A stretch of DNA of 47,414 nt from Actinomycetota bacterium (GTDB lineage: Bacteria > Actinomycetota > Acidimicrobiia > IMCC26256 > PALSA-610). The notes beneath the pieces were generated by a model that saw nothing but the letters and a program-made list of their open reading frames with translations, ran no database searches and was not told the origin of the DNA. The DNA is taken from assembly GCA_003134555.1 (NCBI GenBank), contig PLBO01000152.1, positions 50,632 to 98,045 on the forward strand. Direction: 5' to 3'. This document shows positions 2,683 through 14,786 of this stretch, in pieces (the first letter of the stretch is position 1; every line of letters begins with the position of its first letter). Made by a program: the position numbers and the translations under genes.

Positions 2683-2697
2683 TAGGGTCGCAGCGTG
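2683..2697 (+). promoter_or_regulatory. Leaderless-type -10 box before fbiA
   Basis: TAGGGT (2683-2688) is followed by six bases and then the GTG start at 2695. In Actinomycetota a TANNNT box six to nine bases before a start codon usually means transcription begins at the start codon itself. No Shine-Dalgarno sequence is visible. An identical TAGGGT-N6 arrangement precedes the crotonase gene that starts at 26913. Confidence 0.5.
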
Positions 2698-3633
2698 CTC
2701 GCGACTCTCGCCGGCGGTGTCGGTGCCGCCCGGTTCCTCGCCGGCCTGGTCCGTGTCGTTCCGCCCGTCGACGTCGTCGCGATCGTCAACACCGCGGACG
2801 ACGACGAGTTCCACGGGCTCTACGTCTCCCCCGACCTCGACTCGGTCACCTACACCCTCGCCGGCGCGTCGAACACCGCGCAGGGCTGGGGACTCGAAGG
2901 CGAGACGTTCGCCACGCTCGACGCACTCGCCCGCTACGACGTTCCCACCTGGTTCCGGCTGGGCGACCAGGACCTCGCGACCCATCTCTTCCGCACCGCC
3001 CGCTTGCGGGCGGGCGTCCCGCTCTCGGCGGTGACGGCCGAGATCACGCGGGCCTGGTCGGTCGACACCCGATTGCTGCCGATGACCGACGATCCGGTTC
3101 GGACGCGCATCACCGTGCGGCGAGGTCCCGACCGGGTGGAAGAGCTCGCGATGCAGCAATGGTTCGTGGGCGAGCGGGCCGAGCCTCCGGTGATCGCGGT
3201 CCGCTTCGAAGGTGCCGGCCGGGCCCGGCCGGCGCCCGGCGTGCTCGAGGCGCTCACGCTCGCGGACACGATCGTGATCTGTCCGTCGAATCCCGTGATC
3301 TCGATCGGTCCGATCCTCGCGGTCCCCGGTGTGCGCGACGTGCTGGCGGCCCGGCGTGACCGTGTCGTGGCCGTGAGCCCGATCGTGGGCGGCGCCCCGG
3401 TGAAGGGCCCGGCCGACCGGCTCATGGCACCCCTCGGCATCGACGTGTCGTGCGTCGGCGTTGCCCGCGTCTACGCCGAGATCTGCAGCTCGTTGGTGAT
3501 CGACGCGGTCGACGCCGAGCGGGCCGCCGAGGTCGAGGCAATCGGCGTACACGCCGTGGTGACCGACACGATGATGCGCAGCCCCGAGATCGCGGCCGCG
3601 CTCGCCGCCAAGACGCTCGCGGCGGTGGCGTGA
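2695..3633 (+). CDS. fbiA: 2-phospho-L-lactate transferase type enzyme of F420 synthesis (CofD/FbiA)
   Basis: The 312-residue product joins the lactyl- or enolpyruvyl-phosphate moiety, carried as a GDP intermediate, to the deazaflavin Fo, giving F420-0 or dehydro-F420-0. Family signatures are clear: the N-terminal LAGGVGAARFLAGL loop, NTADDDEFHGLYVSPDLDS around residues 32-50, LGDQDLATHLFRT, and CPSNPVISIGPIL near 200. Length is usual for the family (about 310-330). The GTG start at 2695 is preceded by a leaderless-type -10 box. Its stop overlaps the GTG of cofE (GTGA), so the two are translationally coupled. In mycobacteria the homologue FbiA is thought to use phosphoenolpyruvate; which donor is used here cannot be read from sequence. 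Confidence 0.95.
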   Translation: MLATLAGGVGAARFLAGLVRVVPPVDVVAIVNTADDDEFHGLYVSPDLDSVTYTLAGASNTAQGWGLEGETFATLDALARYDVPTWFRLGDQDLATHLFRTARLRAGVPLSAVTAEITRAWSVDTRLLPMTDDPVRTRITVRRGPDRVEELAMQQWFVGERAEPPVIAVRFEGAGRARPAPGVLEALTLADTIVICPSNPVISIGPILAVPGVRDVLAARRDRVVAVSPIVGGAPVKGPADRLMAPLGIDVSCVGVARVYAEICSSLVIDAVDAERAAEVEAIGVHAVVTDTMMRSPEIAAALAAKTLAAVA

Positions 3634-4337
3634 CACTCTCCATCGTTCCGATCGAGGGCATCGGTGAGATCCGTCCCGGTGACGAGCTCGCGGTGCTCAT
3701 CGCCGACGCCGCGCGCGCCCAGGGCACACCGTTGAACGACGCCGATTGTCTGGTCGTCACCCAGAAGATCGTGTCGAAAGCCGAAGACCGCCTCGTGCCC
3801 CTCGACCCCGACGACCTCGACGCGCGGCGCGCGCTCGTCGAGTCGGAGTCGGTGCGCGTCGTCCGCCGTCGGGGCGACCTGATCATCAGCGAGACCCGCC
3901 ACGGTTTCGTGTGCGCCAACGCGGGGATCGACCTGTCGAACGTAGAACGGGGCTGGGCCGCGCTCCTCCCCGTCGACTCCGACCGTTCCGCCAAGCACGT
4001 GCGCGATGCGCTGCGCGCCCGCGAACACGTCGAGGTGGCGGTCATCGTGTCGGACACCTTCGGCCGGCCGTGGCGGCGCGGGCTCACCGACGTCGCGATC
4101 GGCGTGAGCGGCATCGCGGCCGTCGTCGACCTGCGCGACACCACCGACGCGCTCGGCCGGGTGTTGCAGGTGACGGAGGTGGCCGTCGCCGACGAGATCG
4201 CCTCCGCGGCGGAGCTGGTCATGGGCAAGGCGACGCACGTCCCGGCCGCGATCGTGCGCGGCGTCGATCCGACCTGGTTGCGCGAGGGTTCGGTGCGCGA
4301 GCTGATCCGGCCGACGAACGAGGACCTGTTCCGTTGA
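3630..4337 (+). CDS. cofE: Coenzyme F420-0:L-glutamate ligase (CofE; equals N-terminal half of FbiB)
   Basis: This 235-residue enzyme adds gamma-linked glutamates to F420-0 using GTP. Typical CofE elements are visible: IEGIGEIRPGDELAVLI at the N-terminus, DCLVVTQKIVSKAEDR near residues 33-48, ETRHGFVCANAGIDLSN near 88-104, and VIVSDTFGRPWRRGLTDVAIG near 139-159. The start is GTG 3630, overlapping the fbiA stop by four bases; the frame is open further upstream but that part is antisense-like shadow. In mycobacteria the same domain is fused to a nitroreductase domain in FbiB. Here it ends at a TGA (4335-4337) and the nitroreductase follows as a separate, overlapping gene. Confidence 0.95.
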   Translation: MTLSIVPIEGIGEIRPGDELAVLIADAARAQGTPLNDADCLVVTQKIVSKAEDRLVPLDPDDLDARRALVESESVRVVRRRGDLIISETRHGFVCANAGIDLSNVERGWAALLPVDSDRSAKHVRDALRAREHVEVAVIVSDTFGRPWRRGLTDVAIGVSGIAAVVDLRDTTDALGRVLQVTEVAVADEIASAAELVMGKATHVPAAIVRGVDPTWLREGSVRELIRPTNEDLFR

Positions 4338-4945
4338 GCGCCGTCCCCGCGTTCGTCGAAGCCCGACGGTCTATCCGCGCCTTCCTGCCCGGCCCCGTTC
4401 GGCGCGCCGACCTCGACGCGATCGTGGAGGCCGCGTGCCTCGCGCCCGCGCCCCATCACTCACGGCCCTGGCGGTTCGTCGTCGTCGACACCCACGCGGC
4501 CAAGCGCGCGCTCGCACTCGGCATGGGCGAGCGTTGGCGGCGCGACCTTCTCGCCGACGGCGTCGCGGCCGAGCGCGTCGAAGAGCTCGTCGAAACCTCG
4601 CACCAAAAGCTGGAGCGAGCGCCGGCGTTCGTCGTCGGCTGCCTCACGTGGACCGGACTCGACCGCTACCCCGACGAGCGCCGTCAGCGCGCGGAATGGG
4701 GAATGGCTCTGCTCTCGCTTGGCGCTGCGGTGGAGAACCTGATGCTCACCGCGACCGATCGTGGTCTCGCGTCGTGCTGGGTCGCGGCGCCCATCTTCTG
4801 TCCCGAGGAGGCACGCGACGCGCTCGAGCTCCCGGTCGAGTGGTTGCCGCACGCGCTCGTGCTCGTCGGCCGGCCCGATCCCGCCTACGTCGGCCGGGCG
4901 CGGCCGCCCGTACCGCTCGACGAGATACGGCGCTTCGCCCGCTGA
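4334..4945 (+). CDS. FbiB C-terminal-type nitroreductase (probable dehydro-F420 reductase)
   Basis: This 203-residue nitroreductase-fold protein probably starts at TTG 4334, whose bases overlap the cofE stop (TTGA). No other plausible start lies near the first conserved segment. Characteristic segments are EARRSIRAFLPGPV, APAPHHSRPWRFVVV (about residues 36-50) and RGLASCWVAAPIF (about 140-152), closely like what I recall of the C-terminal domain of mycobacterial FbiB. That domain binds FMN and F420 and is credited with reducing the enolpyruvyl form of dehydro-F420. The position directly after fbiA-cofE supports the same role here. The separation into its own gene is notable. An unrelated nitroreductase is unlikely given the PHHSRP match. 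Confidence 0.85.
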   Translation: MSAVPAFVEARRSIRAFLPGPVRRADLDAIVEAACLAPAPHHSRPWRFVVVDTHAAKRALALGMGERWRRDLLADGVAAERVEELVETSHQKLERAPAFVVGCLTWTGLDRYPDERRQRAEWGMALLSLGAAVENLMLTATDRGLASCWVAAPIFCPEEARDALELPVEWLPHALVLVGRPDPAYVGRARPPVPLDEIRRFAR

Positions 4946-4951
4946 ACGGCG

Positions 4952-5905
4952 TCAACGGGCGCCGGCGCGCTGACCCTTGAAGTACTCGAGCGTGCGAGCC
5001 AGGCCGTCTTCGATCATGGTGAACGGCTTCCAGCCCAGGTGCATCTCCGCGCGGCCCGCGTCGACGGCGCTGCGTTGCAACTCGCCCATGCGCGCCGGCT
5101 TGTAATCCGCCTTCTCGCGAAAGCCGGTGAGCTTCGCCATCCGGTTGTAGAGCTTCTGCACGCTCGTCTCGACGCCCGTGCCGATGTTCAACGTGAGCCC
5201 GCCGCCCTTCTCGACCGCGCGCACGAATGCGTCGGCTACGTCGTCGACGTAGACGAAGTCGCGGGTCTGTGAGCCGTCGCCGAAGATCAGCGGTCGCTCG
5301 CGGTCGAGCAACTTGGCCGAGAAGATCGCGACGACACCCGCCTCGCCGTGCGGGTTCTGACGCGGTCCGTACACGTTCGCGAGCGCGAGCACCGTGTATT
5401 CGAGCCCGCGTTGGTGCCGGTAGTAATAGAGGTATTCGCCTACGGCCTTCTTCGCGACTCCGTACGGCGACTCGGGGTGCTGCGCCGCCGTCTCCTTCGT
5501 CGGGATCTTCTCCGGGGTGCCGTAGAGCGTGCCGCCGGAGCCCGCGAACACCACCTTCTTCACTCCCGCCGCAACCGCACCCTCGAACACGTTCAGCGAA
5601 CCGAGCACGTTGACCGTCGCGTCGAACACGGGCCGGGCGACCGACACGCGCACGTCCATTTGCGCGGCGAGGTGGAAGATCACGTCGGGACGCCGGTGGG
5701 CGATCAGTTCGACGACGGCCGGCGACGCGAGGTCGAGCCGGTGGAACGAGAAGCGACGATCGGGAAGCGTCCGGGCCGTCGCCAGGTTCGCGAGCGAGCC
5801 GCTCGACAGATCGTCGATCACGTCGACGTGCCAGTCCTCGGCGAGAAGGCGGTCGACGAGAGTCGATCCGATGAACCCCGCCCCGCCCGTCACTAGTGCC
5901 TGCAC
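4952..5905 (-). CDS. NAD-dependent sugar epimerase (UDP-glucose 4-epimerase-like)
   Basis: This 317-residue extended SDR starts at GTG 5905, with AAGGGA about ten bases upstream. It has the N-terminal TGGAGFIGS dinucleotide loop (residues 6-14), DDLSSG after the second strand, HLAAQMDVRVSV, a catalytic segment AGSGGTLYG (near 121-129), YGVAKK (the YxxxK pair, near 148-153) and FGDGSQTRDFVYVDDVA. These are features of UDP-glucose/UDP-N-acetylglucosamine 4-epimerases and related NDP-sugar epimerases. It is the last gene of the polysaccharide block and follows the pyrophosphorylase gene after 12 bases. It probably supplies a galactose-type nucleotide sugar. The exact substrate is not determinable. 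Confidence 0.85.
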   Translation of the reverse strand: MQALVTGGAGFIGSTLVDRLLAEDWHVDVIDDLSSGSLANLATARTLPDRRFSFHRLDLASPAVVELIAHRRPDVIFHLAAQMDVRVSVARPVFDATVNVLGSLNVFEGAVAAGVKKVVFAGSGGTLYGTPEKIPTKETAAQHPESPYGVAKKAVGEYLYYYRHQRGLEYTVLALANVYGPRQNPHGEAGVVAIFSAKLLDRERPLIFGDGSQTRDFVYVDDVADAFVRAVEKGGGLTLNIGTGVETSVQKLYNRMAKLTGFREKADYKPARMGELQRSAVDAGRAEMHLGWKPFTMIEDGLARTLEYFKGQRAGAR

Positions 5906-5917
5906 CGTCGGTGTCCC

Positions 5918-7021
5918 TTACTCCCGCTCGGCGGGCACGCGCCCACCCGAGATGCGTGTCCCGGCCGGGATGGTCACTCCCGCGCCGACGATCGTCTCGG
6001 CCGCGAGAGAGACGTCGGGCTTGAGCACCGCGTAGGCGCCCACGACCGAGTCGCGCACGCTGCCGCCGTGCGACACGCGGGCGCCGGAGTGCAGCACCGC
6101 GCCGTCGAGCTCGGAGCGCGCCTCGACAACGGCGGCAGCTCCCAGTACGGACGAGCGCACGCGTGCTCCGGCCTCGATGCGGGCACCGTCGCCGATCAAC
6201 ACCGGCGCCTCGACGCGCGCTTCGGGCTCGATCGTCGCGTCACCCTGCATCCACACACCGGTCTCGACCTCGCGCGCGCCCGGGGCCGGCGGGTGCGAGA
6301 GTCGGCCGGCCAGCGCGTCGGCGTGCGCCTCGAGATACTTCTGCGGCGTACCGATGTCGAGCCAGTACGCGTCGCTCCGGTAGCCGAACAGGAGTCCGGG
6401 CTCGGCCAGCATCCGTGGGAACGTCTCGCGCTCGACGGACACGTTGAGCCGCGGCGGGATTCGCCGGAGGAACGCGGGTTCGAGCACGTACGTGCCGGCA
6501 TTGATCCAGTTGCTCGGCGCCTTGCCGGGCGGCGGCTTCTCGACGAACGCGATCACCCCGCCGTCGGCCTGCGTGGGCACCACACCGAAGGCGCTGGGAT
6601 CCTCGACCTGAGTCAGCGAGATTGTCGCCTCCGCACCGTGCTCGTCGTGGAAGCGCACCATCGCGCTGAGGTCGAGGCTCGTGAGCACGTCGCCGTTGCA
6701 CACGATGACGCGCTCGTCGATTCCTTCCGCCGCGAACCGGATGGCGCCGGCGGTTCCGAGCGGCTCGTCCTCGACGGCATAGCGCAGGACTACGTCACCG
6801 AAGACGTCGTGGCCGGAGCCGTCGCGGGCGAACTGCTGATGGAACGCGTCGGGTAGGTAGCCCATCGACAGCACGACCTCGTCGACTCCGTGCGAGTCCA
6901 GCCACGCGAGCTGACGCTCGAGGTGAGGCTGATTCGCGATCGGCAGCAGCGGTTTCGGCGTCGTGAACGTCAGCGGCCGCAGCCGCGTGCCCTCACCACC
7001 GACGAGGACGACCGCCTTCAC
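5918..7021 (-). CDS. NDP-sugar pyrophosphorylase (ManB/mannose-1-phosphate guanylyltransferase type)
   Basis: A 367-residue sugar-nucleotide synthase. The N-terminal nucleotidyltransferase domain has the signature VLVGGEGTRLRPLTFTTPKP (residues 5-24) with the conserved Lys, then VVLSMGYLPDAF, NGDVLTSLDLS (metal-binding Asp) and a VEKPPPG loop. The C-terminal 120 residues form left-handed beta-helix hexapeptide repeats (PVLIGDGARIEAGARV and similar). This two-domain layout at this length fits actinobacterial GDP-mannose or ADP/dTDP-glucose pyrophosphorylases. The GTG start at 7021 overlaps the stop of the upstream gene (GTGA), indicating coupling. The product sugar nucleotide feeds the glycosyltransferases encoded just upstream. 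GDP-mannose is my first guess; glucose-1-phosphate substrates are possible. Confidence 0.85.
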   Translation of the reverse strand: MKAVVLVGGEGTRLRPLTFTTPKPLLPIANQPHLERQLAWLDSHGVDEVVLSMGYLPDAFHQQFARDGSGHDVFGDVVLRYAVEDEPLGTAGAIRFAAEGIDERVIVCNGDVLTSLDLSAMVRFHDEHGAEATISLTQVEDPSAFGVVPTQADGGVIAFVEKPPPGKAPSNWINAGTYVLEPAFLRRIPPRLNVSVERETFPRMLAEPGLLFGYRSDAYWLDIGTPQKYLEAHADALAGRLSHPPAPGAREVETGVWMQGDATIEPEARVEAPVLIGDGARIEAGARVRSSVLGAAAVVEARSELDGAVLHSGARVSHGGSVRDSVVGAYAVLKPDVSLAAETIVGAGVTIPAGTRISGGRVPAERE

Positions 7022-7845
7022 GGCTTCGACGTCGCCGTCGGCTTCACCGTCGTCGGCGTCGCACCGCCGGTCGCGGCCTTGGTCGTGGGCGGTGCGACAG
7101 GCGGCGTCGTCGTCACGGTTCCGGGGGCGGCCTCGCTCACACCCAGCGCCTGGCCGAGGTTCGGCAGCGCCGGAGAATCTCCGATGCTCGCGATCGACTT
7201 GCCCGGCGGCAGGAACGCGATCACGACGATGTCGTCCTGGAACAGCTTGTAACCGGCGGGGTTACCGGATTGCACGGTGTACTTCTGCTTGCGGCTCGTC
7301 CCGTCCCACTTGCCGATCTCCCACTGCAGGGTGCCCGGCTTCCCGTCGCACAGGTCGCCGTTCTTCCTCGTTGTGCCCAGGAAGCTGAAGCCGGTCGACG
7401 AGATCTTCCAGCCTCCGTAGCTGAAGTAGAGACCGATCGTGGTGTTCTTGCCGGTCTCGGCCGTCACGAGCGGCTCCATGTGGATCACGCCGTCGTCGTG
7501 GCTGTGCATACCCGCGTAGACGCTCGGATTCTTGGCCTGAGAGGGGTTGCCACCGGCGTTCGCGGTCGGCCAATTCCAGGCGCCCGGCTTGGTGCCGTCG
7601 CTCATCCAGCGATTGCAGTCGTAGACGCCGAGGGACGCGTGCCAGTGGGTGTCCTTCTTCGTCCCGGTCGAATCCTGGAGGAACGGACCGACCGGCGCGG
7701 CCTTGGTCGCCTGGGTGTACACGATGCCCGCGATGCCGGCGATGACCACGATCGCCGTCAACGCGTACCACCAGCTGTTCTGGCGGGAGCGCTTCGCGGA
7801 CCGTACGGCGGCGCGCTTGCGCTTCGCTCGGGAGGCGTTTGTCAC
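7018..7845 (-). CDS. Membrane-anchored His-rich extracytoplasmic protein of unknown function
   Basis: A 275-residue protein with a very basic N-terminus (MTNASRAKRKRAAVRSAKRS), one membrane span (WYALTAIVVIAGIAGIVYT, about residues 26-44) and an outside domain. The outside domain carries two His-rich motifs, THWHASLGVYDC (about 66-77) and GMHSHDDGVIHMEP (about 111-124), and two cysteines (about 77 and 163) that could pair. The last 35 residues are a Thr/Pro/Ala-rich tail. The HWHA...HxHDDGxIH pattern recalls small extracellular domains that may bind metal; this is recollection and inference. It lies in the middle of a polysaccharide operon, overlapping the pyrophosphorylase gene by four bases and nine bases after a glycosyltransferase, so it may take part in polymer assembly or attachment. 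GTG start at 7845. Confidence 0.7.
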   Translation of the reverse strand: MTNASRAKRKRAAVRSAKRSRQNSWWYALTAIVVIAGIAGIVYTQATKAAPVGPFLQDSTGTKKDTHWHASLGVYDCNRWMSDGTKPGAWNWPTANAGGNPSQAKNPSVYAGMHSHDDGVIHMEPLVTAETGKNTTIGLYFSYGGWKISSTGFSFLGTTRKNGDLCDGKPGTLQWEIGKWDGTSRKQKYTVQSGNPAGYKLFQDDIVVIAFLPPGKSIASIGDSPALPNLGQALGVSEAAPGTVTTTPPVAPPTTKAATGGATPTTVKPTATSKP

Positions 7846-7854
7846 CCCGGCAGG

Positions 7855-8736
7855 CTAGCCGCGGGCGGGACTCGCCCTCGACGCACGCCAGGCGTGCTCG
7901 GCGATGGCCAGGAGGCAACGAGCAGTGAGATACAGCGCGGCAAAGGGGAGTAAAACCGCAGCCGCGCCGGTGAGGCGCCGCCGGGCAAATCGCCACGCGG
8001 ACCGATGGTGCTGGACGAGCATCCGGTACGGACTCCGTGCGGTGCTCGCGCCCTGTACGTGCGTGACGACACCGGCCGGCTCGTACCCGACATCGAAGCC
8101 TGCGCGCCGGAGCCGCCAGCAGAGATCGAGGTCCTCCACGTACATGAAGTAGCGCTCGTCCCAACCACCGACCGTGTCGAGCGCGCCGCGCCGCAACCAC
8201 ACGGCCGCACCCGAGACCCAGTCGACCGAGCGGGGCTGTGCCGGATCGGCGTCGAGCTCCCGGTACCGGGCGGTGAACGGATTGGTCGGCCACCACAGAC
8301 CGAGGAGCCCGTGCGCGACGGCGAGCGGGACCGAAGGCGAACGCCGGGCCGACGGATAGTCGGAGCCGTCGACATTGCGGATCCGCGGACCGCACGCGCC
8401 CAGCCCCGGCTCCTCGTCGAATCGCGCAAGCATCGCCTTCGCCGTACCGGGTTCCATCGTCAGGTCGGGGTTGAAGACCGCGACGATCGGCGCCCGCGTC
8501 GCGGCGATCCCGAGATTCGCGGCGCGCGCGTAACCGACGTTGCCCGGCGCCGTGATCACCCGCGCGCCGGGCACCGCACTCTGCAGAGCCTCGACGGAAC
8601 CGTCGCTCGATCCGTTGTCGACGACGACGAGCTCGACCTCGCCCGCGCTCGAGTCGGCGAGAATCGACCGGACGCAGTCAGTGAGCAGCGATGCTGCCCG
8701 GTAATTGACGACGACGGCAGCCCAGGCGCGGCTCAC
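7855..8736 (-). CDS. Family 2 glycosyltransferase (rhamnosyltransferase-like)
   Basis: A 293-residue protein from GTG 8736, the first start before the conserved AAVVVNYRAASLLTDCV strand; the frame runs on upstream but overlaps the preceding gene. GT-A motifs are VVVDNGSSDGSVEAL (about residues 36-50), GNVGYARAANLGI, AVFNPDLTME (DXD-equivalent NPD, about 95), and YFMYVEDLDLCWRLRRAGF (catalytic ED, about 195). The C-terminus holds a hydrophobic segment (AAAVLLPFAALYLTARCLLAI), probably membrane association. The pattern is that of WbbL/rhamnosyl-type enzymes acting on lipid-linked acceptors. It begins seven bases after the upstream glycosyltransferase stop. Donor sugar unknown; the operon offers UDP-xylose, UDP-glucuronate and the pyrophosphorylase product. 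Confidence 0.88.
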   Translation of the reverse strand: MSRAWAAVVVNYRAASLLTDCVRSILADSSAGEVELVVVDNGSSDGSVEALQSAVPGARVITAPGNVGYARAANLGIAATRAPIVAVFNPDLTMEPGTAKAMLARFDEEPGLGACGPRIRNVDGSDYPSARRSPSVPLAVAHGLLGLWWPTNPFTARYRELDADPAQPRSVDWVSGAAVWLRRGALDTVGGWDERYFMYVEDLDLCWRLRRAGFDVGYEPAGVVTHVQGASTARSPYRMLVQHHRSAWRFARRRLTGAAAVLLPFAALYLTARCLLAIAEHAWRASRASPARG

Positions 8737-8743
8737 GCGACCG

Positions 8744-9469
8744 TCAGTCCCGGAAGCGGTACTTGACGAGCGTCCACAGCGCGGAGAACCCGTCGCGCCA
8801 CGTGATCTTCTTACCCTCGTCGAACTCACGACCGGAGTAGGAGATCGGCACCTCGTAGATCCGGATTCCGCGCTTCAGAATCTTCGCGGTGATCTCGGGC
8901 TCGATGTCGAAACGACTGGAATGGAGGTTCATGCTGTCGACGAGATCGCGCTCGATCAGCTTGTAACACGTCTCCATGTCGGACAGCGTCGTGTTGAAGA
9001 GCACGTTGGTGGTCATCGAGAGGAACCGGTTCCCGATCCAGTGCAGCAGCAGCATGTTCCGCCGCTCGCCCGTGAAGCGCGATCCGTACACGACCCGTGC
9101 CTTGCCGCGCAGCACCGGACTGAGCATCCGCGGCCAGTCCTCGGGGTCGTACTCCAGATCGGCATCCTGCACCAGCACGTATTCGCCGGTCGCGTGTGCG
9201 AAGCCCGTGCGCAACGCCGCGCCCTTGCCGCGGTTCACCTCGTGCATCACGACGCGCACGGTGCTGTCGCCGAGCTGGTTGAGCACGTCGCGGGTGCCGT
9301 CGCTACTCCCGTCGTCGACGACGATGATCTCGCGCTCGATCCCGTCGGGCAGCTCGACCGCGCGCATACGACGCAGGATCTCGACGAGCGTGTTCCGCTC
9401 GTTGAACACCGGTACGACGATCGAGAGCTTGCGCAGCTTCTGCGGCGCAGCATCGTCACTCGCGGCCAT
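8744..9469 (-). CDS. Family 2 glycosyltransferase (polyprenyl-phosphate sugar synthase-like)
   Basis: A 241-residue protein starting at ATG 9469, chosen because GGAGGAG lies about eight bases upstream; the frame extends to 9508 inside the previous gene. Motifs are LSIVVPVFNERNTLVEIL, IIVVDDGSSDGTRDVL (about residues 48-63), NRGKGAALRTGF, VLVQDADLEYDPED (DAD metal site, about 101) and YGSRFTGERR. The FNTTLSDMETCYKLI segment and IEPEITAKI are typical of dolichyl/undecaprenyl-phosphate mannose or glucose synthase relatives. There is no C-terminal GtrA or membrane domain. It probably makes a lipid-phosphate sugar donor for extracytoplasmic glycosyltransfer, or extends a lipid-linked chain. It overlaps the upstream decarboxylase gene by 14 bases. 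Confidence 0.88.
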   Translation of the reverse strand: MAASDDAAPQKLRKLSIVVPVFNERNTLVEILRRMRAVELPDGIEREIIVVDDGSSDGTRDVLNQLGDSTVRVVMHEVNRGKGAALRTGFAHATGEYVLVQDADLEYDPEDWPRMLSPVLRGKARVVYGSRFTGERRNMLLLHWIGNRFLSMTTNVLFNTTLSDMETCYKLIERDLVDSMNLHSSRFDIEPEITAKILKRGIRIYEVPISYSGREFDEGKKITWRDGFSALWTLVKYRFRD

Positions 9470-10403
9470 GGCGTCGCTCCTCCAGATACCAGTCGCGCAT
9501 GCGCGCAAGACCGTTGGGCAACGTTACCGTCGGCTCCCAGCCGAGGAGCGTGCGTGCTCGAGTGATGTCGGGCCGGCGGCGCGTCGGGTCGCCGACCGGC
9601 AGCGGCTCGAAGACGACCTCGGAGCTCGAGCCCGTGACCTCGCGCACGACGTCGACGAGCTCGAGCATCGTGATCTCGTTCGGATTGCCGATGTTCACGG
9701 GATCGGAGACGCCGGAGTCGAACAGCGCGACGATCCCGCGCACCTCGTCGTCGACGTAGCAAAACGATCGCGTCTGACCGCCGCTGCCGTACACCGTCAA
9801 CGGCTTGCCGTCGATCGCCTGGATCATGAAGTTCGACACCACGCGCCCGTCGGCCGGCCGCAGCCGCGGACCGTAGGTGTTGAAGATGCGCACGATCGCC
9901 GCCGGCAGGTCGTACAGACGTCGGTACGTAGCGGTCAGCGTCTCCGCGAACCGCTTCGCCTCGTCGTACACCGCGCGCGGCGCGCCCGGGTCGACGTTGC
10001 CGTTGTACGACTCGGACTGCGGATGCACGACGGGATCGCCGTAGATCTCACTCGTCGACGCGAGCAGGAACCGCGCGTCGTTCGCGAGCGCGAGGTCGAG
10101 GGCGCGGCGCGTTCCAATCGAGCTGACGTCGAGGGTCTCGAGCGGGACCGCGAGATACTCCGGCGGGCTCGCGGGGCTCGCGAAGTGCAACACGCCGTCG
10201 ACCCGGCCCTCGACGGGGATCGCTTCGCAGACGTCGGCGCGGACGAACGAGAACGCGGGATGTTCGGCGAGATGGGCGAGGCTCTGGAGCCGGCCGGTCG
10301 ACAGGTTGTCGACCGCGACGACCTCGTCGCCCCGCGCGAGGAACACGTCGCAGAGATGTGATCCGACGAACCCGGATCCGCCGGTGACGACGATGCGCGC
10401 CAT
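9456..10403 (-). CDS. UDP-glucuronate decarboxylase-like (UDP-xylose synthase family) SDR
   Basis: A 315-residue extended SDR with TGGSGFVGSHL (residues 7-17), DNLSTGRLQSL, HFASPASPPEYLAVPLETLDV (about 73-93), STSEIYGDP (catalytic Ser/Thr region), YDEAKRFAETL (YxxxK), RIFNTYGPR, DGRVVSNFMIQAI and RSFCYVDDEVRGI. The ASPASPP, RVVSNF and SFCYVDD motifs are hallmarks of UDP-glucuronic acid decarboxylases (UXS), which convert UDP-glucuronate to UDP-xylose with bound NAD. The gene directly follows ugd, which makes UDP-glucuronate, with zero intergenic bases (ATG at 10401-10403, ugd stop at 10404). That context makes UDP-xylose synthesis the most likely role. Confidence 0.9.
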   Translation of the reverse strand: MARIVVTGGSGFVGSHLCDVFLARGDEVVAVDNLSTGRLQSLAHLAEHPAFSFVRADVCEAIPVEGRVDGVLHFASPASPPEYLAVPLETLDVSSIGTRRALDLALANDARFLLASTSEIYGDPVVHPQSESYNGNVDPGAPRAVYDEAKRFAETLTATYRRLYDLPAAIVRIFNTYGPRLRPADGRVVSNFMIQAIDGKPLTVYGSGGQTRSFCYVDDEVRGIVALFDSGVSDPVNIGNPNEITMLELVDVVREVTGSSSEVVFEPLPVGDPTRRRPDITRARTLLGWEPTVTLPNGLARMRDWYLEERRHGRE

Positions 10404-11699
10404 CTACCTTCGCCCGACGCCCTGATACGCGAAGCCCCGGCGCCGCATGGCGGCAGGATCGAGCAGGTTGCGGGCGTCGACGATCGCGCGCCCGCGCATC
10501 GTGTCGCGTACGCGGTCGAAGTCGAGCCAACGGAACTCGTCCCACTCGGTCAACAGGGCGACCACGTCGGCACTCGCCGCGGCGTCGTAGGCATCGCCGC
10601 AGAGCTCGATCCCGGGGGCCAGCTGCCGGGGGCGGTCGCCGGCGCCCCGGTCGTACGCCCGCACGATCGCCCCCTCCTCGAGGAGGCGGCGGGCGATGTA
10701 GATCGCCGGGGAATCGCGCAGATCGTCGGTGTCGGCCTTGAACGTCAGACCCCAGAGCCCGACCGTCACCTCGGAGACGCTTCCGCCGACGGCGGCGCGC
10801 ACCTTGTCGATCATCCGCTCGTGCTGGGCCGCGTTGACATCGACGACGCCGGCGAGGAGCTCGAAGTCGTAACCGGCGGCAGTCGACATATGCAGCAGCG
10901 CGGCGACGTCCTTGGGGAAGCAGGAACCGCCGTAGCCGGGACCCGGGTGGAGGAACTGGAACCCGATGCGCGTGTCGTAGCCCATCCCGATCGCGACCTC
11001 GCGCGCGTCCGCGTCGACCGCCTCGCAGAGGTTCGCGATCGCGTTGATGAACGAGACCTTCGTCGCGAGGAACGCGTTCGATGCGTACTTGATCATCTCG
11101 GCCGACGCGGGATCGGTGACGAGCACCGGCGCGTCAACCCGCTTGTACAGCTCGCTGACCCGAACGGCCGACTCGTGATCCTCGCATCCGATGACGATGC
11201 GATCGGGGTTCAGGAAGTCGCGGACAGCCTGGCCCTCGCGTAGAAACTCGGGATTCGACGCCACGGTCACGCCCTCGGCGCCCGCGCCTGCCTCCGACAG
11301 CACGCGCTGGACGAAACGCGTCGCGCCGACCGGGACGGTCGACTTGTTGACGACCACGGTGTTCGGTGCCAGGACCGGCGCGATCTCCTGGGCGACGGTC
11401 TCGACGAACGAGAGATCGGCCGAGCCGTCGGATCCCTGAGGCGTCTGCACGCACAGGAACACGATCTCGGCGCGCTGGGCGGCGGTGGCCGCCCCGACCA
11501 CGAATTCGAGCCGGCGCGCCGCGAGGCCTTCCTTGATCAGCCCGGCCAGTCCGAGCTCGAGGATCGGCACCTCGCCTTTTTTCAGGCGCGCGACCCGCTC
11601 GGCGTCGATGTCGGCGCAGACGACGTCGTGACCGAGGTGGGCGAAGCACGCCGCGGTGGTCAAGCCGACGTATCCGGCCCCGATGACCGCGACCCTCAT
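10404..11699 (-). CDS. ugd: UDP-glucose 6-dehydrogenase
   Basis: A 431-residue enzyme that oxidises UDP-glucose twice with NAD to UDP-glucuronate. It shows the Rossmann start VAVIGAGYVGLTTAACFAHL, the mid-domain KSTVPVGATRFV (about residues 119-130), SNPEFLREGQAV (about 148-159), NAFLATKVSFINAIANLCE and the catalytic-cysteine motif GYGGSCFPKD with Cys260. Length and order are standard for the bacterial family. The ATG at 11699 overlaps the TGA of a possible nine-codon leader ORF (11696-11725). The product feeds the UDP-xylose synthase encoded next and probably the UDP-glucuronate epimerase encoded at 21479-22423. Confidence 0.96.
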   Translation of the reverse strand: MRVAVIGAGYVGLTTAACFAHLGHDVVCADIDAERVARLKKGEVPILELGLAGLIKEGLAARRLEFVVGAATAAQRAEIVFLCVQTPQGSDGSADLSFVETVAQEIAPVLAPNTVVVNKSTVPVGATRFVQRVLSEAGAGAEGVTVASNPEFLREGQAVRDFLNPDRIVIGCEDHESAVRVSELYKRVDAPVLVTDPASAEMIKYASNAFLATKVSFINAIANLCEAVDADAREVAIGMGYDTRIGFQFLHPGPGYGGSCFPKDVAALLHMSTAAGYDFELLAGVVDVNAAQHERMIDKVRAAVGGSVSEVTVGLWGLTFKADTDDLRDSPAIYIARRLLEEGAIVRAYDRGAGDRPRQLAPGIELCGDAYDAAASADVVALLTEWDEFRWLDFDRVRDTMRGRAIVDARNLLDPAAMRRRGFAYQGVGRR

Positions 11700-11725
11700 G
11701 ACACGCCGCGTCCGAGACCTGACAT
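11696..11725 (-). CDS. Possible nine-codon leader ORF overlapping the ugd start
   Basis: An ATG at 11725 opens the short frame MSGLGRGVS, whose TGA (11696-11698) overlaps the ugd ATG (11697-11699) in an ATGA arrangement. TAGACT (11734-11739, minus strand) lies eight bases before this ATG, so the mRNA may start at or next to it. Translation of the tiny frame could load ribosomes onto ugd, which has no Shine-Dalgarno of its own. This is geometry only; the peptide has no recognisable run of a regulatory amino acid. Confidence 0.3.
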   Translation of the reverse strand: MSGLGRGVS

Positions 11726-11733
11726 GACGGGCG

Positions 11734-11739
11734 AGTCTA
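11734..11739 (-). promoter_or_regulatory. Candidate -10 box upstream of ugd
   Basis: TAGACT on the minus strand, eight bases before the ATG at 11725 of the mini-ORF that precedes ugd. It sits in the 65-base gap between ugd and the LCP gene ending at 11765, suggesting the ugd operon has its own promoter. Confidence 0.4.
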
Positions 11740-11764
11740 GGGCGGGAGGGGCGTTCTCAGCAGC

Positions 11765-13171
11765 TCAACAGCCCGCCGCAGGCAGCGATGTGGCGGTCGA
11801 CGCGCTGGGGGCCGCCGCGCCGCTCGTCGGCCCGCTCGTCGGCGGGGTCGATGCCGCCTTCGGTGCGGGGCGGCTGAGGCCGTTGTAGTCGCGTCCCAAT
11901 ACCAGGACGATGTCCGTTCCCGCCGCTGCACCTCCGCTGAGCGCCACGACCTTGCCCGCGCCGCCGAGCTCGGAGAGCAGGAACCGCGCTTTGGCCGCGC
12001 TGTCCGGCGCGTACCGAACCTCGGTGACCGTGTAGTCACTGCGGTCGGCGTTCGTCGCCGTGCCGACCACCGAGAAGCCGAGACCGCCGAGCGCGGCGTC
12101 GGCGCGCGCACCGAGTCCCGTGCGACCGCTTCCGTTCTCGACGGACACGTGAACGGTGTGCGGATCGACCGATTCCGCCGCGCTCTGCGCGTTCGCCGGG
12201 TTTCCGATGCCGCGCAGGCGTGCGAGCAGCTCGGCCGCCTTGGCGCTGTCGAGCACGAGCGCATCCTGCCCGTTGATGAACTGCCGGTTCACGGGCAGCG
12301 TCTGGGCCTCGATGCCACCGGCGCGGTGGAACGCGTACGCGAGCGCCCGCAACGACGACAAGCCGAGCTTCGGGTCGCGCTGGAGGTTCGTGAGCATCGA
12401 GTCGAGCAGGTTGTTGGCGTTCCAGGGAGCCGAAGCCGCGGCGTGCAGCGTCTGCTGGGCGAGCGTGCGCAGGAAATACTGCTGGCGCTGGATCCGGCCG
12501 AGGTCCGAGGTCGGGTCGGATTTCCACTGTCCGTTGACGAGCGACTCGTAATAGCGGGAGCGCACGTACGCGAGCGCCTGGTCGCCGTCGAGATGTTGGC
12601 AGCCGGCCTTGTTGACGGACAGCCCGCTCTTCGTGTCGCGGGCGGGTGCGGGGAAGTAGATCGGAATCGTCCCGATCGCGTTCACCATCTTGCGGAAGCC
12701 CGCGAAATCGACCTCCAGGTAGTGGCTGATCGGGATGTCGAAGTCGTTCTCGATCGTCTCGATCATCCGCTGCGGTCCGGCGTTGAAGGCGGCATTGATC
12801 TTCGCGTGCCCGATCCCGGGGATGGCGACCCAAAGGTCGCGCGGGAACGAGACGAGCAACGCGGTTCCGTTCCGATCGTCGATGTGGGCGACCATGATCG
12901 TGTCGGAGCGTTGCCCGGTCTGCTGTTGCGCGCTGCCGAAATGCTGTGCATCCTGTGCGCCGTTCACGAACGCGCGGGAATCGGAACCGATGAGCAGATA
13001 GTTGCCGCCCGATTGGAGCACCGAGGTGTCGATCGGCACCCGCGCGACCTTGGAGACCTTGCGCGCGGCCTCCGCGTAGGCGCCGACGATGAGGACCGTC
13101 GTCAGCACGACCGCGATGACGAACGCGGTGATCAGACGATGCAGGAACGTCCGCGGCGACAGGGCGCTCAT
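11765..13171 (-). CDS. LytR-CpsA-Psr (LCP) family glycopolymer ligase with LytR C-terminal domain
   Basis: A 468-residue membrane protein. A single N-terminal span (LITAFVIAVVLTTVLIVGAYAEAA, about residues 13-36) leads to the extracellular LCP domain: NYLLIGSDSR (about 57-66), RSDTIMVAHID, ALLVSFPRDLWVAIPG (PRD arginine, about 110), HYLEVDFAGFRKMVNAIG, and LDGDQALAYVRSRY (about 193-206). Near residues 340-430 a LytR_C-like domain follows (VHVSVENGSGRTGLGARA, SDYTVTEVRYAP, VLVLGRDY), then a Ser/Thr/Pro/Ala tail. LCP enzymes transfer wall glycopolymers from lipid carriers to peptidoglycan or arabinogalactan. It lies four bases after a second LCP gene and just ahead of ugd, in keeping with a wall polysaccharide locus. 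Confidence 0.92.
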   Translation of the reverse strand: MSALSPRTFLHRLITAFVIAVVLTTVLIVGAYAEAARKVSKVARVPIDTSVLQSGGNYLLIGSDSRAFVNGAQDAQHFGSAQQQTGQRSDTIMVAHIDDRNGTALLVSFPRDLWVAIPGIGHAKINAAFNAGPQRMIETIENDFDIPISHYLEVDFAGFRKMVNAIGTIPIYFPAPARDTKSGLSVNKAGCQHLDGDQALAYVRSRYYESLVNGQWKSDPTSDLGRIQRQQYFLRTLAQQTLHAAASAPWNANNLLDSMLTNLQRDPKLGLSSLRALAYAFHRAGGIEAQTLPVNRQFINGQDALVLDSAKAAELLARLRGIGNPANAQSAAESVDPHTVHVSVENGSGRTGLGARADAALGGLGFSVVGTATNADRSDYTVTEVRYAPDSAAKARFLLSELGGAGKVVALSGGAAAGTDIVLVLGRDYNGLSRPAPKAASTPPTSGPTSGAAAPSASTATSLPAAGC

Positions 13172-13175
13172 GGAC

Positions 13176-14786
13176 TCACTTCGTCGGGCAACCGACCAAC
13201 GCGGCGCCCGTCTTCGGATCGACCGGCACGAAACGCGTGTCGACGGTCCGGCGGGGTGCGCTCGTCGTGGTCGTGGTGGGTAGCGTCGGTCCGGGCGTCG
13301 TCGTCGTCGTGACCGACGGGAGCGTGCCGGCCGCGCGTGGGATGAGATCGAAGCGATGCTCGAGCGCCGTGTAGTCGCGGCCGACGATCACGAGCACGTC
13401 GCCGCCGAGCGTGAACTTCGTCGACGCGGCCTCGACGAGGTTCGCGGTTCCCACGGCGACCGCCACCGTGTAGCCCTCGTTGAACTTGCCGGGCGCGTAG
13501 CGCACCGAGGTCTGGTAGTCGCTGCGATCCGCGTCTTGCGCCGGGCCGGCCGACTGGAACCCCGCGGCGACGAACGCGTCGAGCGCCAGGCTGCCGGCGC
13601 CCTTCAAACCCGAGCCGTTGACGACGCGCACTTTCACCTTGTCGGCCGCGAGCGGCTTCACGACCGGCTTCGGCGGCGGCGCGGTGAACTTCGAGAGCAG
13701 GCCGATGACTCCCGCTGCGTCGGGAAACTTGGCCAGGACGCGATTGCGGTTGGTGGGGTCGGGCAACGTCGGCAGTGTCGACATCTGGACCTTCGCCGGA
13801 TTGAGACCGCGGAAGGTGAGCGCGAGCGAGTACAACTCGCTCTGCTTGAGGGTCTGGTCGTGCCCGAGGCTCCCGAAGACCTTGTCGAGCAACGACACGA
13901 CCTTGAGCGGGTCGTTCCCCAGCTTGTCGATCGCGGCTTGGCTCACCGTGCGCAGGAAGTACTGCTGGCGCGGGATGCGGTCGATGTCACTTCCGGTCGC
14001 GATCCAGCCGTCTCCGCCGGTCTGCGACGGGTAGTCCCAGACCCAGGGCGCGGGGTTCTTCAGGTCTTTGGGAACGAAGTAGTGCCGCGAGCGGGCATAG
14101 GCAAGCGCCTGGTCGCCGTCGAGACTCACGCAACCCGGCTGGTTGACTTCGAGTCCCGTGAACGGATCGTGCGCCGGTGTGGAGAACCAGATGTGGATGT
14201 GGCCGATCTCGTTGATGATGTTCTTGAAGCCGCGGAAGTCGACCTCGAGGTAATGGTTGATCTTCAGCGGCGTGAAGTCCTGCTGCAGCGTCTGGATCAC
14301 CAGGCTCGCTCCGCCGAAGGCGAAAGCTGAATTCAGAAGATTGCGTCCGTGGCCCGGAATCTCCACCATCAGGTCACGCGGAAACGACACCAGCATACCC
14401 GTGTGGGCAACGGGATCGACGTGCAGAACCATCATCACGTCCGAGTGTTGGCCGCCGACGACCTTGCTGCTGCCGTACGCCTGAGCCTCTTGCGGCGTTT
14501 CGTCGGCCGGACGCACGTCGGAGCCGATGAGCAGGTAGTTCGCCGGCTCTCCCGGTTTCACGGTCGCAAGGATGCCCTCGTTGATGTGAATGACGCGGCT
14601 CTTCGCGAATTCCCGTTTCCCGTACGCCTGGGCGGAGACGAAGCCGACCGTGGCCAGGACGGCGACCGCGAGCAATGCGATCGCGAACCGGCGAATGAAT
14701 GAGAACGCGGAGGGAGTGAGGAGCACGCGACGCAGGATTGTACTGACGCGAAGCGCACGGATCGGACGCGCACATATCGTTTTCAC
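13176..14786 (-). CDS. LytR-CpsA-Psr (LCP) family glycopolymer ligase with LytR C-terminal domain
   Basis: A 536-residue paralogue of the next gene. N-terminal membrane span FIRRFAIALLAVAVLATVGFVSA (about residues 30-52); LCP domain with NYLLIGSDVRPADET (about 82-96), HSDVMMVLHVD, GMLVSFPRDLMVEIPGHG (about 128-145), HYLEVDFRGFKNIINEIG and LDGDQALAYARSRHY (about 216-230). A LytR_C-like segment follows (VKVRVVNGSGLKGAGSLALD, about 396-415), then a Thr-rich linker (TTTTTPGPTLPTTTTT) and an end with PKTGAALVGCPTK. The GTG at 14786 is preceded by AAGGGCG. It starts 18 bases after the acyl-CoA dehydrogenase stop and may be co-transcribed with it. Duplicated LCP genes may serve different polymers or acceptors. 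Confidence 0.92.
   Translation of the reverse strand: MKTICARPIRALRVSTILRRVLLTPSAFSFIRRFAIALLAVAVLATVGFVSAQAYGKREFAKSRVIHINEGILATVKPGEPANYLLIGSDVRPADETPQEAQAYGSSKVVGGQHSDVMMVLHVDPVAHTGMLVSFPRDLMVEIPGHGRNLLNSAFAFGGASLVIQTLQQDFTPLKINHYLEVDFRGFKNIINEIGHIHIWFSTPAHDPFTGLEVNQPGCVSLDGDQALAYARSRHYFVPKDLKNPAPWVWDYPSQTGGDGWIATGSDIDRIPRQQYFLRTVSQAAIDKLGNDPLKVVSLLDKVFGSLGHDQTLKQSELYSLALTFRGLNPAKVQMSTLPTLPDPTNRNRVLAKFPDAAGVIGLLSKFTAPPPKPVVKPLAADKVKVRVVNGSGLKGAGSLALDAFVAAGFQSAGPAQDADRSDYQTSVRYAPGKFNEGYTVAVAVGTANLVEAASTKFTLGGDVLVIVGRDYTALEHRFDLIPRAAGTLPSVTTTTTPGPTLPTTTTTSAPRRTVDTRFVPVDPKTGAALVGCPTK

Follow-up and report, generated by a model that had tools for sequence, protein, structure and literature searches.

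Proteins of the LytR-CpsA-Psr (LCP) type have their N-terminus inside the cell, a single transmembrane segment and an outer domain. Short histidine-containing metal motifs are found in cupins, M23/LAS metallopeptidases and CopC-type copper proteins, several of which are extracytoplasmic. Here we analyse a gene whose product shares the topology of the first group and carries short His motifs of its own. It lies at 7018..7845, on the minus strand, in a 47,414-nucleotide stretch of Actinomycetota DNA (the window), and FAM is the label used here both for this gene and for its family. FAM is an undescribed family but of a recognisable kind, that is, a small extracytoplasmic metal-type domain in an envelope locus. 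Among the titles listed and the opening lines of their abstracts, no publication was recognisable as describing it.

FAM starts with GTG, encodes 275 residues and is supported as a gene by its open reading frame and by orthologues in the class. The initial annotation had pointed to HWHA and HSHDDGVIH motifs and to two cysteines in a membrane-anchored protein, and all of these proved to be real and conserved in most homologues. A basic, Lys/Arg-rich N-terminus is followed by a single hydrophobic segment, predicted from the sequence and from family hydropathy to be a transmembrane anchor (residues ~26-46, 7708..7770, minus strand like all features of the gene). A 19-residue stretch of mean hydropathy of at least 1.6 is present within the first 70 residues in 102/103 rows of the family. 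Then come HWHA (residues 67-70, 7636..7647, with H67 and H69), Cys77 (7615..7617), HSHDDGVIHME (residues 114-124, 7474..7506, with H114, H116, D118, H122 and E124), Cys166 (7348..7350) and a Thr/Pro-rich C-terminal tail (residues 245-275, 7021..7113). Threonine and proline make up at least 40% of the last 30 residues in 51 of 78 FAM loci. The two cysteines are invariant (81/81 rows, likewise 103/103) and a Cys77-Cys166 disulfide is probable. The sequence pattern prompted the idea of a beta-grasp-like C-terminal half; two AlphaFold2 models built on a 4-row alignment had mean pLDDT values of 39.2 (residues 48-240) and 40.6 (residues 62-226), too low to be informative.

A search with the single sequence finds one FAM copy in the genome of the window and relatives in 105 of 296 genomes from its class, which is probably Acidimicrobiia. 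Regions were taken from 84 of these (78 + 6), leaving aside 21 genomes, mostly weak matches, and some second matches. A 40-member profile (A3) matched 50 of 396 genomes of the phylum: a long match was obtained in 30 of 38 class genomes, with a 31st (G023) matching only near the membrane segment, three genomes of family f61, from another class, matched at E <1e-28, and the remaining 16 matches were weak (E 1e-7 to 0.01), some of them being the HTHD proteins described below. The counts given here refer either to an 81-row alignment (80 loci plus the query, which is also among the 80) or to 103 rows, made up of the 80 loci, 20 more (14 found only by profile and 6 weak single-sequence matches) and the three of f61. 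Neither Pfam nor NCBIfam returned a family for the FAM protein up to E 10, and nothing consistent was obtained with Pfam for 40 members (19 families, each in 1-2 members, best E 0.0028) or with the PDB by sequence and by profile (best E 0.38). FAM matches none of the known metallohydrolase families in Pfam, NCBIfam or the PDB.

The histidines of FAM are either kept together or lost together. Three homologues of the same genus keep every motif His and both cysteines. In the 81 rows, H67, H69, H114, H116 and H122 are found in 77, 79, 74, 76 and 78 rows, and D118 in 80; position 124 is H in 63 of 80 rows and E in 12, as in the window protein. Conservation of the histidines among homologues, a check set in the initial annotation, held for most of the family only: all five are kept in 81 of the 103 rows, four in none, and three or fewer in 22 (twelve have none at all), where they are lost as a set. 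These site-lost rows are probably under-represented, since it was mostly His-bearing members that supplied the query and the profile. Among the 80 loci, seven rows deviate at the five positions, each by at least two, and when losses were shuffled among rows, a procedure that ignores relatedness, as few affected rows were obtained in 0 of 20000 trials (mean 19.0). The five His thus behave as one functional unit, a conclusion supported by these counts.

Set-wise change occurred repeatedly. On the best tree, a quick one with SH-aLRT support only and built without the trait columns, the state of the site changed at least 8 times, and 6 changes are forced by well-supported branches. We read the changes as losses because the site is intact both in the HTHD outgroup and in the three f61 rows, whose retrieval by profile did not depend on the motif. 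The site-lost rows keep C77 and C166 (22/22), W175 (22/22) and the membrane segment (22/22). Well-supported branches gave only 6 independent pairs for comparing loss of the His set with the presence of LCP, Ugd, the glycosyltransferase GT2a or epimerase A, too few for significance. Replacement of a lost site by an HTHD copy elsewhere showed no link in 42 chosen genomes (21 site-lost and 21 intact, with intact G110 confirmed from L121): an HTHD match outside the locus at E <1e-20 occurs in three intact genomes (G000, G138, G071) and in three site-lost ones (G059, G286, G067), and the copies of the latter keep HTH but read HTHA or HTHT.

Further information about the site came from a wider family. 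A DNA pattern modelled on the 'HTHDxSGxIHxE' type of protein was found in 9 of 198 phylum genomes, in one of them (G363) at a place already matched by A3. The translations have the same order of parts as FAM. With the FAM profile, HTHD proteins are matched at E values from 3.7e-9 to 0.7, and hhalign of A3 against the HTHD profile (A5) gave a probability of 98.6 and E 7.6e-16. In a joint alignment the five His of the window protein align with those of 8/8 HTHD rows, in the order HxH, HxH, H, and A5 has them in 18/18 HTHD rows; these counts are partly due to selection, many rows having been picked by a pattern or regular expression holding the second motif, while the HxH of the first motif was not part of row selection. 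A5 leaves out the degenerate first domain of the Caballeronia protein mentioned below. FAM is homologous to these proteins over the His motifs and the C-terminal half, and the window protein has the five His and an acidic residue after the last one. The 'VxVPxxIGI'-like segment found between the His motifs in most A5 rows is absent in FAM, and for this reason we file FAM as a related branch and not as a typical HTHD protein. As judged by sequence comparison, the FAM domain is a divergent branch of this wider unnamed family. Most of the listed plasmid records annotate HTHD proteins as 'hypothetical protein', and seven sampled relatives (five HTHD, one of f61, and L173) had no Pfam or NCBIfam assignment above the curated cut-off.

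The genomic contexts of HTHD genes point to metals in one phylum. Relatives occur in 24 records of the plasmid collection, and 14 of their neighbourhoods were read. Genes for mercury, copper, cadmium or other heavy metals lie within 8 kb in 8 of these 14 (H6, H9, H13, H15, H16, H17, H19 and H20), all from Actinomycetota, several of them from related hosts. This amounts to 8 of the 9 actinobacterial neighbourhoods, the exception being H18. None of the five plasmids from other phyla has heavy-metal resistance genes nearby, although one (H8) has a bacterioferritin gene. As a small control, windows distant from the relative on five of these eight plasmids held no heavy-metal genes (0/5). Chromosomal contexts are mixed: among 39 neighbours there were two Cation_efflux, two arsR and one multicopper oxidase, in a tally that covers 39 of 60 called genes and shows 25 of 65 families. 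Neither viral contigs (profiles A3 and A5) nor phages (one HTHD protein queried) gave a relative. Metal binding by the HTHD domain is probable from these contexts and motifs. A metal site in FAM is likely too, because His conservation and set-wise loss are combined with the heavy-metal context of the actinobacterial relatives, and the arrangement of HxH, HxH, H and E/H resembles a set of metal ligands. The suggestion that the His residues look like a metal site is strengthened in this way: they act as one conserved site, common to a wider family that in actinobacterial plasmids often stands beside heavy-metal genes.

Several other HTHD or FAM-like proteins are worth recording. The genome of the window has a second, typical HTHD protein, a likely lipoprotein (L235:7871-8548; G000:C127:49313-50041), directly downstream of genes that we take to be glmU and prs. 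In family f62, of another class, the surroundings of an HTHD gene include CofD, CofE and a gene resembling a nucleotidyltransferase (L159, L166, L167, L169, L170); the loci scanned (L166, L169, L170) also have SpoIID/LGFP or DUF3105 genes next to it. This locus echoes the neighbourhood in the window, with the HTHD gene on the strand opposite to the nucleotidyltransferase. On an Anoxybacillus plasmid the HTHD domain is the C-terminal part of an annotated SkfF, a sporulation killing factor membrane protein (L179:6309-8429). A Caballeronia protein (L183:7173-8429) has tandem HTHD domains, the first without most of the histidines and the second intact, which resembles the losses in FAM. Genome G087 encodes a second FAM-like protein, lipoprotein-like and without the histidines, away from the glycan locus (L173:7830-8603).

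With such relatives, FAM could be an envelope protein that handles copper or a similar metal by sequestration, buffering or sensing, and that shares the glycan operon without taking part in making the glycan. The heavy-metal neighbours of HTHD genes in 8 of 14 plasmid neighbourhoods speak for this reading. Nevertheless, the gene and its position were retained where the site was lost, the plasmid relatives outside Actinomycetota are not accompanied by heavy-metal resistance genes, and FAM is coupled almost invariably to a nucleotidyltransferase gene, as described below. We consider metal handling as the sole role unlikely.

FAM could also be a metal-dependent enzyme, either a hydrolase, a lyase or a transferase, which modifies a polymer or attaches it outside the cell. 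The initial annotation had suggested that FAM might be a polymer-modifying factor or a metal-dependent hydrolytic or attachment factor. This would agree with the His/Asp set conserved in most rows and with the position of FAM in a sugar-polymer operon together with LCP proteins. Nonetheless, at least 6-8 lineages have lost the His set and still have the gene in place, no hydrolase family is matched in Pfam, NCBIfam or the PDB (the 40 members gave only scattered weak Pfam matches), and HTHD relatives are found mainly in other contexts. We consider an enzyme of this sort disfavoured and rather improbable. Since the gene, its cysteines and its place survive without the site, the role of FAM in the locus would not rest on metal alone. 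This survival makes a plain metalloenzyme less plausible and speaks instead for a scaffolding or accessory role in assembling glycan at the outer leaflet, the metal being structural or regulatory.

The locus itself gives reasons to link FAM with glycan synthesis. FAM belongs to a run of nine minus-strand genes (4952-14786), eight of them with Pfam assignments, which from strand and spacing would form one transcript. In order along the window these are NAD-dependent epimerase/dehydratase A (4952..5905, PF01370, E 1e-58), a nucleotidyltransferase of the NDP-sugar pyrophosphorylase type with an NTP_transferase domain and hexapeptide repeats (5918..7021, PF00483, E 6e-45), FAM, two family 2 glycosyltransferases (GT2a, 7855..8736, PF00535, E 1.7e-22; and b, 8744..9508, PF00535, E 6.9e-34), NAD-dependent epimerase/dehydratase B (9456..10403, PF01370, E 1.1e-49), a Ugd-like UDP-glucose/GDP-mannose dehydrogenase (10404..11699, PF03721, E 2.9e-62), and two LCP proteins (11765..13171, PF03816, E 3.4e-36; 13176..14786, PF03816, E 2.6e-29). 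Thus, sugar-nucleotide, glycosyltransferase and attachment genes lie together on one strand, as in an envelope glycan biosynthesis operon. FAM is separated by 9 bp from the upstream GT2a gene and overlaps the nucleotidyltransferase gene by 4 bp, in a GTGA stop/start (7018..7021, minus strand) where the latter starts with GTG. CofD, F420 ligase and nitroreductase genes, assigned through similarity to L170 and by eye, converge on the operon at 2695-4945.

The coupling to the pyrophosphorylase gene noted from the window alone is general in the family, and the surrounding unit can now be defined as the nine-gene run. By tblastn, a nucleotidyltransferase homologue lies directly downstream of FAM in 92 of 103 rows, with little regard to the state of the site (71/81 intact, 21/22 site-lost). 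Gene calls were available for 78 of the 80 loci (all but L051 and L076); in 73 of them FAM is followed by the nucleotidyltransferase, and in 64 epimerase A comes second downstream. The spacing measured in 73 loci was -4 in 36 and -1 in 11. The 11 rows that miss the neighbour include two in which the contig is short (53 bp remain beyond the gene in L055 and 1479 bp in L083), two second copies outside the locus in genomes that also have a normal copy (L041, L087), and the three f61 rows (L162-L164). L051 was also counted as a miss, its nucleotidyltransferase being present but run together with FAM; this apparent fusion in a single open frame (L051:7964-9874) was rejected as a likely assembly or sequencing artefact, the nucleotidyltransferase frame itself being broken. 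Adjacency is truly absent in three class loci (L068, L209 and L210), where a contig end is no excuse. In two of these, from family f49 (L209, L210), FAM has been relocated to a place flanked by CofE and CofD, on the opposite strand and away from the nucleotidyltransferase.

Other members of the operon are less regular. Upstream of FAM, the 78 loci have GT2a in 46 and a gene unassigned by group in 31; in one of the latter (L085) the first two upstream genes scan as group 1/4 glycosyltransferases. An association with LCP and Ugd genes had been suggested as a further check, and it is real in the window but not constant in the family, as LCP is present in 45/103 and Ugd in 44/103 FAM loci, counted in regions of up to ~8 kb on either side, some of them cut by contig ends. 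The constant partner of FAM is the nucleotidyltransferase. Epimerase A is the best epimerase match 300-2500 bp downstream of FAM in 76/103 rows; a looser count anywhere in the locus (91/103) was discarded, as it admits epimerase B-type paralogues. Regarding the idea that homologues belong to polysaccharide loci, class homologues do lie in the sugar locus, but the distant HTHD relatives examined mostly do not.

Conserved adjacency of this kind can reflect inherited gene order. FAM would then be a passenger, its position next to the nucleotidyltransferase and CofD/CofE being an old chromosomal order with no link to the glycan. CofD is present in 84/103 and CofE in 73/103 FAM loci, so that the wider region is also conserved, and no role in glycan synthesis is obvious for these two genes. 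The frequent 4-bp and 1-bp overlaps argue against a passenger, as does the fact that upstream genes vary while the FAM-nucleotidyltransferase pair stays; we hold this reading to be improbable. A metal-free site made up of the histidines, for catalysis or proton relay, is very improbable, given the heavy-metal neighbours of HTHD relatives and the likeness of the FAM set to metal ligands, although set-wise conservation and loss would fit any single site.

We hypothesize that FAM serves the envelope glycan as an accessory protein and that its metal site is ancestral but dispensable, a full reading to which we give slightly less than an even chance. FAM would be a membrane-anchored protein with a disulfide-held outer domain, working with the neighbouring sugar-nucleotide and glycosyltransferase enzymes that build or display a cell-envelope glycan. 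Its role would be accessory, either non-catalytic or in binding a substrate or partner. It would descend from the widespread unnamed extracytoplasmic HTHD domain, whose five His and acidic residue probably coordinate a transition metal, with copper and zinc as the likeliest candidates. The intact site in the lineage of the window probably serves to stabilise or regulate the domain. Elsewhere, in at least 6-8 lineages, the site was dismantled and the two cysteines and the operon position were kept, which suggests that the glycan role carries the metal as an optional addition. The lower, stricter epimerase A count and the partly selected His conservation of HTHD proteins weigh slightly against this reading and slightly in favour of a passenger role. 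Anatomy, homology, conserved gene order and set-wise loss are read directly from the sequences, while metal binding, the metal concerned, the disulfide and the glycan-assembly role of FAM are what we infer from them.

More tentatively, the envelope-glycan machinery of one class may have taken over an ancient extracytoplasmic domain that binds metal and used it as a metal-bearing assembly factor, after which many lineages stripped the whole site and kept the disulfide scaffold. Metal-dependent and metal-free versions of the glycan machinery could thus coexist, possibly tuned to metal supply or stress in the habitat. FAM is a conserved envelope family, unnamed in the Pfam and NCBIfam copies searched and tied to the glycan genes of a class, and together with its HTHD link it offers a concrete entry point to envelope assembly in that class. 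The repeated losses of the whole site provide natural mutants for probing the role of the metal.

FAM differs from the described systems closest to it. It has no Pfam, NCBIfam or PDB match to cupins, M23/LAS metallopeptidases or CopC-type proteins, and the spacing and order of its motifs presumably differ from theirs. DUF3105 (PF11303) adjoins HTHD genes in two actinobacterial loci (L166, L169), but FAM does not match it. LCP proteins are encoded in the same operon as FAM in the window, but FAM has no PF03816 match and this family is also unlisted for the 40 members. The HTHD family is the closest of all. Like FAM, its proteins have a basic N-terminus and a hydrophobic segment (in most rows), HxH and HTHDxSGxxHxE, followed by a 'tLGqFFdvWG' segment and by 'NG..gdP..I.L..H..I.l..G' towards the C-terminus. 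FAM differs in being one residue shorter between the last two His, in usually having H at position 124 (E in 12/80 rows, the window included), in its own invariant Cys pair and in its genomic context.
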